A stretch of DNA of 28,885 bases from a virus, in IMG/VR virus record IMGVR_UViG_3300030329_002261, positions 3,217 to 32,101 of that record. One strand, written 5' to 3'. Position numbers and translations under genes: made by a program. Every line of letters begins with the position of its first letter. Position 1 is the stretch's first letter. This document shows, in pieces, positions 8,529 through 13,352 of this stretch. The notes below the pieces were generated by a model. The model did not search any database. It saw only the letters and a list, made by a program, of their open reading frames with translations, and was not told where the DNA came from.

Positions 8529-8557
8529 TTTATAAACTACTTGACAAACATTGTCAA
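8529..8557 (-). promoter_or_regulatory. Sigma70-type promoter for the 8504 gene
   Basis: Minus-strand TTGACA at 8557-8552, 17-base spacer, TATAAA at 8534-8529. It is preceded by CTA, making CTATTGACAA as at 7940 and 25367. Its -35 forms the right arm of the palindrome TTGACAAACATTGTCAA. Confidence 0.82.
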
Positions 8558-8569
8558 TAGGATTATATG
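8541..8569 (+). promoter_or_regulatory. Plus-strand promoter reading into the structured RNA region
   Basis: Plus-strand TTGACA at 8541-8546, 17-base spacer, TATATG at 8564-8569. The -35 is perfect, the -10 weaker. The predicted start is near 8576, exactly where the first RNA stem begins (8577). The -35 is the left arm of a 17-nt palindrome whose other arm is the -35 of the divergent gene. Confidence 0.65.
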
Positions 8570-8575
8570 GGATTA

Positions 8576-9064
8576 TAGGCTCCTGGGCATGAGCCTTAAT
8601 AATAAAGGCCCACTGATCCCGGGCTCTATGGGGCTGAGACGCAGGATTCCTGAGACGGCTCAATACTAGTGCGTCGCCGAATAACTGTAGGGCCCGGGAT
8701 CAGTCCACAAACTCGCTGGAGACGAAACCAGCGGGGCTGATCCCTGGTCCGAACATCGCTAGCGCCTTAGTGCAAGGAATTACTGGAGCACTCGGACCTG
8801 GGATCAGATTTGGTCGAGACATACAATAGTATTAAATGTCTGGGTATGGTCCAGACATCAACCAAAACTGGTCAGGGAGTTCGTTTGTCCCTGGTGATGG
8901 CTGTAACCGAAGCGGCGACCAGCAGGAAGCGCGTAAGACCTGCATACCTGGAAGGTTAATAATAAAACTAGCAACAGCCGGATTAGCTGGCTCTGTTGAA
9001 AGAGAACAGAGAGAAGCCGCCTGCGGGCGGCCTTGCCAGCTGATCCTATTTTTTTTTTTTTTTT
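8576..9064 (+). ncRNA. Putative large structured non-coding RNA (about 490 nt)
   Basis: The stretch has no plausible protein; the longest open frames translate the T-run into poly-Phe. It is visibly GC-richer than neighbouring genes and holds consecutive stems: 8577-8582/8591-8596 (6 bp); 8612-8624/8692-8704 (13 bp, enclosing 8638-8642/8671-8675); 8714-8719/8728-8733 (6 bp, 8-nt loop); 8737-8752/8792-8807 (15 bp with one T-T mismatch); 8836-8843/8851-8858 (8 bp); 8873-8878/8888-8893 (6 bp); 8899-8904/8974-8979 (6 bp, enclosing 8922-8926/8939-8943); and 8980-8991/9035-9046 (12 bp with one G-U) enclosing hairpins 8992-8997/9005-9010 and 9016-9021/9026-9031. Sixteen T follow. A promoter begins at 8541. 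It lacks hallmarks I know for tmRNA, RNase P or group I/II introns. It could be a large phage RNA of the GOLLD/ROOL kind, but I cannot name a class. Confidence 0.78.
8980..9064 (+). terminator. Branched terminator at the 3' end of the putative RNA
   Basis: A 12-bp stem (8980-8991 with 9035-9046, one G-U pair) encloses two hairpins: TCTGTT/AACAGA with loop GAAAGAG, and GCCGCC/GGCGGC with loop TGCG. Two bases after it begins a run of 16 T at 9049-9064. The T-run exists only on the plus-strand side, which fixes the direction of transcription. Confidence 0.85.
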
Positions 9065-9094
9065 GGGTGGGCCCGCCCACAAGCAAGCCCCCCC
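9065..9094. repeat. GC-rich dispersed repeat, copy 2
   Basis: Second copy of GGGTGGGCCCGCCC, followed by ACAAGCAAGC and a C-run, directly after the terminator T-run. Compare 7054-7084. Confidence 0.7.
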
Positions 9095-9122: not shown

Positions 9123-9151
9123 TTGACAAGTCCGCAAGCATGGGATATTAT
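9123..9151 (+). promoter_or_regulatory. Sigma70-type promoter for the gp88-like gene
   Basis: TTGACA at 9123-9128, 17-base spacer, TATTAT at 9146-9151. The -10 is embedded in GCATGGGATATTAT, which also occurs in the repeats before terminase (7205-7218). The predicted start, around 9158, leaves only about ten bases before the ATG, so the GGGAG at 9152-9156 may not be transcribed. Confidence 0.82.
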
Positions 9152-9166
9152 GGGAGATAGAAAGTT

Positions 9167-9790
9167 ATGAATATATTGAAAGCAAAAGAAATTACAGGCA
9201 GCCTCTCAAAGCCTTCCAAGATGCCGGGGTGGTCTTATGGTTTACCGGCTAAGGAATGCAAAACCGGGAGCAAGCTCCGAAAGGTTGAGGGCTCAACCTG
9301 TTACAATTGTTATGCATTAAAAGGCTGTTATGTTTTTAAAGTTGTGCAAGATGCGCAATACTACAGATTAAAAGCAATACGCCACCCGCACTGGGTCCCG
9401 GCCATGGTTATGCAAATAAATAATAAACGATCTAAAGAATTTAGGTGGCACGATTCCGGAGATGTACAAGATTTAAAACACTTATTAAAAATTTTTAAAG
9501 TTTGTAAGTTAACGCCAAAGATTCAACACTGGATGCCGACCCGGGAGGCGTGGGTTAAACCATTTATAAAAATAGCTCCTAAAAATTTATGTATTCGTTA
9601 CAGCGTCCCGATGAACGACCAGCCACCGATTAAAAGCTGGCCCAATGTTTCAACAGTAATAACAAAAGACGCGCCCTGGTTCGGGGCCACTTCTCAAGTC
9701 TGTCCAGCTCCAAAGCAAGATAATAAATGTTTAGATTGCCGTGCTTGCTGGAACCGTGATATACATAACATTAGTTATTGGAATCACTAG
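9167..9790 (+). CDS. Gp88-like protein (Pfam GP88 family), Cys-rich
   Basis: A 207-residue protein with the pattern of the family named after mycobacteriophage gene product 88: KMPGWSYGLPAKEC near the start, STCYNCYALKGCY (about 43-55), FRWHDSGDVQ (about 92-101), HWMPTREAW (about 121-129), and a C-terminal Cys cluster, VCPAPKQDNKCLDCRACW (about 179-196). The Cys pairs suggest a metal or iron-sulphur site. The biochemical role is not established to my knowledge. It is one of few plus-strand genes, has its own promoter, and lies directly after the putative structured RNA, so a functional link is possible. The 64-residue gene begins one base after its stop. Confidence 0.85.
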   Translation: MNILKAKEITGSLSKPSKMPGWSYGLPAKECKTGSKLRKVEGSTCYNCYALKGCYVFKVVQDAQYYRLKAIRHPHWVPAMVMQINNKRSKEFRWHDSGDVQDLKHLLKIFKVCKLTPKIQHWMPTREAWVKPFIKIAPKNLCIRYSVPMNDQPPIKSWPNVSTVITKDAPWFGATSQVCPAPKQDNKCLDCRACWNRDIHNISYWNH

Positions 9791-12578: not shown

Positions 12579-12679
12579 TTTTTCTTTTTCTTCTCCTTTC
12601 GTTTCCTATTTATTATCTGCTCTACCAAACCATCCGTTGTAGGATTGCCTAGTATAGCTTTTATATTATCCTGCTTCAA
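12575..12679 (-). CDS. Possible 34-residue basic micro-protein (TTG start)
   Basis: A frame beginning with TTG at 12679 inside the end of the oxygenase gene and ending in TGA that overlaps the next ATG (ATGA at 12578-12575). It reads KQDNIKAILGNPTTDGLVEQ followed by a Lys/Arg-rich tail. The coupling pattern and natural composition argue for it; the absence of a ribosome-binding site and of an ATG argue against. No function recognised. Confidence 0.4.
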   Translation of the reverse strand: MKQDNIKAILGNPTTDGLVEQIINRKRKEKKKKK

Positions 12680-13352
12680 CTTTGGCAGGTGCAATAATTT
12701 TTGCTTTTTCATTTTTTTCCACTTGATTTAATGGCACAGAGCTTGCCACGTTCCCTGATACAGATATCCTGGTCACATCAGAATAAAAAGGTGCAACGTA
12801 ATGTTTTAACCACGACGGGAATATAAACATATCCCTGTTCTGAGGTATTATCGATTGATAGGTTATGGCTTGTCTATTACCCTCACCATATACAAAAGAT
12901 AAACTACCTGGACCACCGGATTGACCTTTAAATGTTTTTGCTTCTTCCTTAATTTCGCTAGGAACATCAAGAAATATTACAAAAGATAACTGGTCGGCAT
13001 GGTCGTGTGGTGGATTATATTCATGTTTTTTCATGAAGTTTACCCATAGAGACGTTAATACGTAGTGTGGTTTAATTTTATATTTTTCATTTTTCCATTT
13101 CTGAAATGCTTCATCGTACACACCCAGGATCTGTGCAATCTCCGGCACAAACATACCTTTGTCTTTGTATTCATATTCTTCTTTTAATATTCCTGCGAGC
13201 CTATCTGTGTAGTCTTGTTCCTTGACTCTAGATTTAAAAGCCTCATCTAAAAGTTTTTTATGAAACTCTTCTGATATTTTAATATGTACACAACATGGCC
13301 CCCAGGTAAATACCCCGTATTGAACCGTTGGTGAATTTATTTCGTTTGTCAT
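12666..13352 (-). CDS. 2OG-Fe(II) oxygenase (2OG-FeII_Oxy_5 type)
   Basis: A 228-residue putative 2-oxoglutarate- and iron-dependent oxygenase. The metal-binding cluster is NPPHDHADQLSFVIFLDVP (His116/His118/Asp120), and the second part is DMFIFPSWLKHYVAPF with His184, followed by RISVSGNV whose Arg195 would hold 2-oxoglutarate. This architecture matches oxygenases common in marine phages, including cyanophages; substrates are mostly unknown. A residue string TSLWVNFMKKH precedes the site as usual. It is coupled by ATGA with the homing-endonuclease-like gene upstream. A second, different oxygenase is at 26802. Confidence 0.88.
   Translation of the reverse strand: MTNEINSPTVQYGVFTWGPCCVHIKISEEFHKKLLDEAFKSRVKEQDYTDRLAGILKEEYEYKDKGMFVPEIAQILGVYDEAFQKWKNEKYKIKPHYVLTSLWVNFMKKHEYNPPHDHADQLSFVIFLDVPSEIKEEAKTFKGQSGGPGSLSFVYGEGNRQAITYQSIIPQNRDMFIFPSWLKHYVAPFYSDVTRISVSGNVASSVPLNQVEKNEKAKIIAPAKVEAG

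Follow-up and report, generated by a model that had tools for sequence, protein, structure and literature searches.

Genomic Context of the RNA Region

The window, i.e., the whole 28,885-nucleotide stretch of DNA analyzed, corresponds to bases 3217–32101 of a linear 32.1-kb IMG/VR virus record and harbors genes for an SU10-type portal, the large and small terminase, a family A DNA polymerase, helicases, and a GP88-family protein. The nearest cultured relative was found to be Pelagibacter phage HTVC027P (66% identity in the large terminase and 51% in GP88), together with HTVC023P for the terminase. As these closest cultured relatives are viruses of SAR11 bacteria, protein similarity suggests that a SAR11-type host is likely. 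A 2OG-Fe(II) oxygenase family gene (PF13759) is present at 12666–13352 on the minus strand. The region of interest is positioned between the start of a divergent gene (8504) and that of the gp88-like gene (9167), and its features are listed in Table 1. The GP88 family, represented in the window at 9167–9790 (plus strand), showed an invariant CYNCYALKG motif and more invariant cysteines near the C terminus; a search with the GP88 sequence found no credible solved relative. Related phages are denoted by L numbers.

Table 1. Features of the RNA region and the gene downstream of it, in window coordinates; z-values are for segments folded alone, relative to shuffled sequences.
Feature	Position	Strand	Basis or remark
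Promoter, TTGACA (8541–8546), 17-nt spacer, TATATG (8564–8569)	8541–8569	+	Sequence; recurrence in relatives
H-type pseudoknot	8577–8612	+	Covariation in relatives
Module 1, long hairpin, base stem CUGAUCCCGGGC.../...GCCCGGGAUCAG	8612–8704	+	z = −6.8 (8612–8704); module family
Small hairpin CUCGCUGG/CCAGCGGG	8709–8736	+	z = −5.8 (8709–8736); homologs in L119 and L112
Module 2, stem CUGAUCCC-U.U-GGUCCGA	8737–8807	+	z = −4.2 (8736–8808); relative L080
Hairpin domain H2	8808–8867	+	Seven homologs with compensatory stem changes
Domain D3, structure uncertain	8868–8979	+	97% identity to L135 over 115 nt
Module 3, closing stem GGAUUAGCUGGC/GCCAGCUGAUCC, two nested hairpins	8980–9046	+	z = −6.9 (8979–9048)
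U tract, intrinsic terminator (16 T)	9049–9064	+	Sequence
Own promoter of gp88-like gene, TTGACA-17-TATTAT	9123–9151	+	Sequence scan
gp88-like gene (PF17338)	9167–9790	+	Near-constant downstream neighbor of the RNA family

Evidence for a Plus-Strand RNA Gene

An earlier note on this DNA had proposed a plus-strand RNA gene and had suggested shuffled-control folding, an Rfam search, and covariance analysis as checks. Folding of 8570–9070 gave −207 kcal/mol against −163 ± 6.5 kcal/mol for dinucleotide shuffles (z = −6.7), and none of 100 shuffles was as stable. Folded alone, 8868–8979 was no stabler than shuffles (z = +0.4), and neither was the first hairpin, the latter owing to its being half of a pseudoknot. 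The G+C content of the RNA region was 54% as compared to 36% for the window, with no richer 472-nt stretch elsewhere in the window, in agreement with the elevated content claimed previously. The Rfam scan of the window gave no match at the gathering score or at E ≤ 5, RNase P RNA and group I and II introns included, and the ARAGORN and Rfam checks of the region yielded no tRNA or tmRNA. Also, long ORFs are absent from the region, and a reading frame is not preserved in any domain across phages owing to whole-domain swaps and an indel in the 115-nt stretch homologous in L135. The absence of a plausible protein and of tmRNA, RNase P, and intron hallmarks, as had been claimed, was thus borne out.

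The elements of the promoter noted at 8541 are present, although a stricter consensus scan did not list this promoter, and many relatives carry TTGTCAATAGGATTATAT, either exact or with one to two changes, upstream of their RNA region. The position of the promoter places the start of transcription at about 8576. TTGACA and TGTCAA over the promoter (8541–8556) form an inverted repeat, which occurs with varying spacing in many relatives and represents either an operator or overlapping divergent promoters. The terminal run of 16 T was found as described; in the otherwise near-identical L001 (near 5869), the tract comprises 28 T. The stability of the fold, the compensatory changes in the stems and pseudoknot across related phages, and the one-strand G.U and U.U pairs described below strongly support the proposal, and it is practically certain that 8577–9064 is a plus-strand structured RNA gene of ∼490 nt.

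Conserved 5′ Pseudoknot

In the pseudoknot at the 5′ end, S1 is formed by AGGCUC (8577–8582) and GAGCCU (8591–8596) and S2 by UGGGC (8584–8588) and GCCCA (8608–8612), with UUAAUAAUAA as the conserved linker. S2 was complementary in 58 of 58 distinct relatives though its sequence varies. In a gap-free alignment (n = 23), 100% of cells were paired against 88% when shuffled, two-sided changes were present in all four of the four S2 pairs, and the covariation score was 0.391 as against 0.146 for shuffled and 0.04–0.12 for slid alignments. Lone copies of the pseudoknot were found directly upstream of short ORFs (L213:9051, L214:764, L221:5044, L237 on the minus strand, L247:876, and L262:5662) and near a start codon (L252:13127), with a promoter immediately before each. 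Owing to this placement between promoter and short ORF, the pseudoknot looks like a 5′-end element, and it may protect the 5′ end from decay. In some arrays, it is preceded by a stop codon and not by a promoter, and some arrays, like that of HTVC027P, start with a different element.

Hairpin Modules and Strand Bias

The arrays of this family hold one to four hairpins with a common base stem, followed by more hairpins and a U-tract. Each module is a hairpin of ∼50–120 nt closed by CUGAUCCC-U.U-GRUC...GAYC-U.U-GGGAUCAG, and a second module class begins with CUUGAGCCC. The consecutive stems reported earlier were confirmed, except that the first of them belongs to the pseudoknot and that the fold is not fixed: the RNA is a chain of modules and not one fixed fold. 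In the window, module 1, a variant lacking the U.U mismatch, contains the palindrome ACUAGU near its top (8665–8670), module 2 contains the palindrome CGCUAGCG at 8757–8764, and module 3 doubles as the terminator stem.

A total of 261 distinct module members, oriented by their neighbors, were compared. The mismatch at position 9 was U.U in 229 of the 261 and A.A in one. Stem positions 10–15 comprised 1472 Watson–Crick pairs, 72 G.U, 7 A.C, and 15 others, while the first eight base pairs were set by the search pattern, and their conservation is not to be over-read. The excess of G.U over A.C (72:7) and the U.U mismatch pertain to the sense strand only, and the base-stem core was oriented on the gp88 strand in 244 cases as against 3 on the opposite strand. 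Such a strand bias is an RNA signature, as a DNA inverted repeat would leave none.

The same counts bear on a DNA-level element, in which the modules would be inverted-repeat cassettes for recombination or cruciforms, like integron attC sites or REP-like palindromes. The modules do have common ends, and identical whole modules occur in phages with distant gp88 genes, e.g., 72 nt in L126 and L165 (gp88 59% identical). Integron attC sites function in folded DNA, and RNA strand bias is not required of them; the array is strongly biased to one strand in all three respects (G.U against A.C, U.U against A.A, and orientation). It is moreover flanked by a promoter and a U-tract terminator and contains the covarying pseudoknot, no recombinase gene was noticed adjoining it, and homologous recombination via the common stems suffices for exchange, which makes a DNA element highly improbable.

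Palindromic Module Tops

The module tops were found to be enriched in perfect palindromes of 6–10 nt. The 217 non-redundant tops contained 228 palindromes of 6 nt as compared to 128 ± 11 in DNA of matching length from the same contigs, and comparison with shuffles gave 192 against 109 ± 10.5. As many as 57 of the 64 possible 6-nt palindromes occur in the tops. In homologous contexts, defined as flanks identical at 13 or more of 16 positions with the 6-mer changed, the changed 6-mer had remained perfectly palindromic in 32 of 66 cases, as against 9 of 786 controls; where exactly two bases differed, 19 of 21 stayed perfect palindromes. The closest relative of module 2, found in L080, matches it across 72 nt with just two substitutions, one at either end of the palindrome (CGCUAGCG to GGCUAGCC). 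Palindromic 6-mers were also unpaired more often (0.58 vs. 0.48, p = 1e-10), a difference that shuffles do not show.

Since a contiguous palindrome is unable to fold on itself, the selected pairing would be with another copy, and homotypic kissing contacts between RNA copies are likely on the strength of these comparisons. About 28% of the module tops were without a 6-nt palindrome; hence, kissing is not required of every arm. Also, some palindromes may pair within their module. Sharing of palindromes between modules of one array was at chance level (5/71 vs. 5.9%), so that palindromes keeping the modules in register are unsupported. Loop pairing between different modules of one RNA was likewise not retained, the signal being weak (a 7-nt complement in 17 of 132 pairs vs. 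7.6% at random).

A stack of terminators or insulating hairpins with no further function would account for stable hairpins that end in a U tract and separate divergent transcription units. The array is far bigger than such a function requires, and the covarying pseudoknot, near-invariant cores, and palindrome covariation would be left without explanation; this is the least probable of the alternatives considered.

Other Domains and Module Turnover

The core of H2 (CGRGACAUACAAUAGUAUUAAAUG...GGUAUGGUC) is near-invariant, and the stems around it covary; its CAUAC and GUAUG could pair. D3 contains a possible long-range GGCUGU/ACAGCC pairing and a second UUAAUAAUAA motif near 8956, and its homolog in L135 is carried inside a different array. 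Homologs of module 3 occupy other array positions in L002 and L026, and the remaining domains of the window RNA recur in other phages, combined differently. L077 is 92–96% identical to the window on both sides of the array, which is replaced from 8612 to 9050 except for module 3.

Where the gp88 identity of two phages was 97% or more, they almost invariably had modules in common, L017/L019 being one exception, while the listed pairs with gp88 93–96% identical had none. Among close relatives (gp88 85–95% identical), an exact 24-mer was common to the arrays in 181 of 356 pairs as compared to 336 of 356 for the neighbors. The array thus outpaces its neighbors among close relatives only, and part of this is explained by the fact that non-coding DNA often does so. 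The notion that arrays are uniquely mobile between distant phages was not borne out, as exact 24-mers are common to the neighboring genes with equal or higher frequency; mosaicism is general in these phages, and hence, the 24-mer test among distant phages does not single out the array.

The conserved parts and the turnover among close relatives are what would be expected of a decoy or sponge RNA, the main rival, in which the hairpins would bind a host protein (a nuclease, defense sensor, or translation factor) and diversify in an arms race, dimerization being secondary. The strongly conserved base stem, including the U.U and the CCC-U-GRUC/GAYC-U-GGG core, as well as the near-invariant H2 core, would be the recognized elements. 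Binding of a host protein alone leaves unexplained why the loop 6-mers vary freely yet stay self-complementary, and a decoy is considered somewhat unlikely as the principal function, though it can coexist with self-assembly.

Distribution of the RNA Family and the Cultured Relative

A search with the GP88 protein gave 65 loci, whose comparison revealed a recurrent promoter and first hairpin upstream of gp88, with a differing interior. Pattern scans of IMG/VR identified at least 119 stretches with the module base stem and 80 with the 5′ element. The family has well over a hundred IMG/VR relatives, nearly always upstream of a gp88-like gene. A scan of 84,980 bacterial and archaeal species genomes gave one match, a 6.6-kb Flavobacterium single-cell scaffold resembling HTVC027P. 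The family diverges so fast that comparing the RNA with phage and plasmid records by BLASTN was unproductive. The HTVC027P array occupies an interval without annotation that separates gp35 from gp34 (L266:5132–5679; MN698241 17671–18218; z = −4.0). Phage 023Pt_psg01 has a single module, and modules were absent from HTVC023P, HTVC033P, and DSL-LC04.

The position of the array directly upstream of gp88 on the same strand could suggest a long structured leader or attenuator controlling gp88. The earlier note had placed gp88 directly after the RNA; the gene is indeed its near-constant downstream neighbor, and a separate promoter lies between the two. The 16-T terminator and this consensus promoter, as judged from their sequences, the small genes that intervene in many relatives (gp34 in HTVC027P), and the array contigs without a detectable gp88 up to the small terminase gene (L131, L160, L174, and L188) argue against a leader, which is very unlikely.

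Rfam scans of the window and 25–26 relatives gave RF02976 ("Flavobacterium-1") as the sole match, in three relatives and not in the window. This model corresponds to a 3′ array domain in HTVC027P (90 bits) and in the scaffold KB911123.1 (L265; 104 bits). KB911123.1, which is labeled as Flavobacterium sp. single cell, has the appearance of phage DNA of the HTVC027P type, and the Rfam name probably reflects a wrongly assigned host. L013 carries a separate RNA matching RF02976 (599–722, minus strand; 92 bits), on the opposite strand and far from the gp88-linked array of that contig. RF02976 covers 121 nt, a single optional domain, and leaves the modules, pseudoknot, and palindromes undescribed. 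A literature search of open-licence papers found no description of the whole RNA family. Some of the hairpins may already have been listed, for example, in a large catalogue of RNA structures predicted for phages.

Gp33 (GP88) and gp34 adjoin the array in HTVC027P. In an RNA-seq study of HTVC027P infection, these two genes form an unusual cluster that is highly expressed at 6–9 h (PMC12753301), and a term search of that paper gave no mention of the array. The RNA-seq data of this infection, with HTCC1062 as the host, are public (PRJNA1253180).

Comparison With Known RNAs and Proposed Role

The structures of GOLLD, ROOL, and OLE were solved in one study, which showed that they assemble as homo-oligomers via kissing loops, and for OLE and GOLLD, symmetric kissing loops between molecules were supported by palindrome switching in the loops (PMC12286853). 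GOLLD and ROOL are phage or prophage "ornate" RNAs forming homo-oligomeric cages. The likeness to GOLLD and ROOL drawn in the earlier note is apt in kind, as all are large, phage-encoded, non-coding, and highly structured and carry symmetric kissing signatures in their loops; the palindrome covariation expected of such loops was found here (32/66 vs. 9/786; module 2 vs. L080). Membership in either family is unsupported, since their Rfam models match neither the window nor the 25–26 relatives. GOLLD and ROOL are often encoded near tRNA genes, whereas no tRNA was found in the 28.9-kb window. The present RNA consists of interchangeable hairpin modules strung together, which have a U.U stem in common, and its palindromes are hypervariable and occur in most modules, unlike the one or two positions per family in GOLLD and ROOL. 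OLE has a similar symmetric kissing loop with a sequence-switching palindrome (PMC12286853) but is a bacterial chromosomal RNA with protein partners, and the window RNA gave no Rfam match to it. A smaller parallel is the dimer initiation site of HIV-1, where two RNAs pair through copies of one six-nucleotide palindrome. That site is one contact in a viral genome, whereas this family has several palindromes in one non-coding RNA.

The best explanation is that the locus encodes a separately transcribed phage structural RNA that is homo-oligomeric via palindromic kissing loops on rigid hairpin arms (probability ∼0.75). Sequence comparison supports this reading with the one-strand RNA signature, the modular U.U-stem hairpins, the conserved pseudoknot, the self-complementary tops, and the module turnover. 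Transcription of the RNA would start from the promoter at 8541 and end at the U tract, the pseudoknot would shield the RNA from 5′ decay, and the palindromes would pair between RNA copies inside the infected cell. The assembly might then act as a scaffold or sequestering particle during infection, a guess that is offered tentatively. Module diversity might be favored if the RNA assembles only with its own kind or escapes a host factor. A fuller version, namely, hypervariable RNA self-recognition, with exchangeable cassettes, own-type-only assembly, and diversifying selection from co-infecting phages or a host factor, is unlikely on present evidence but, if true, would constitute a novel type of system for RNA-based identity or assembly.

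Beyond what the earlier note had recognized, the RNA is modular and hypervariable and belongs to a large marine phage family with a cultured representative. The family also places RF02976, which covers one domain only and is probably misnamed for its host, in context. Self-assembling natural RNAs are rare, and the roles of GOLLD and ROOL are unknown. The present family is carried by relatives of the phages that infect SAR11, which is the most abundant group of bacteria in the sea, and its fast evolution leaves many natural compensatory mutants of loop–loop contacts. As a cultured host–phage pair with public infection RNA-seq is available, RNA self-assembly in infection is directly testable.
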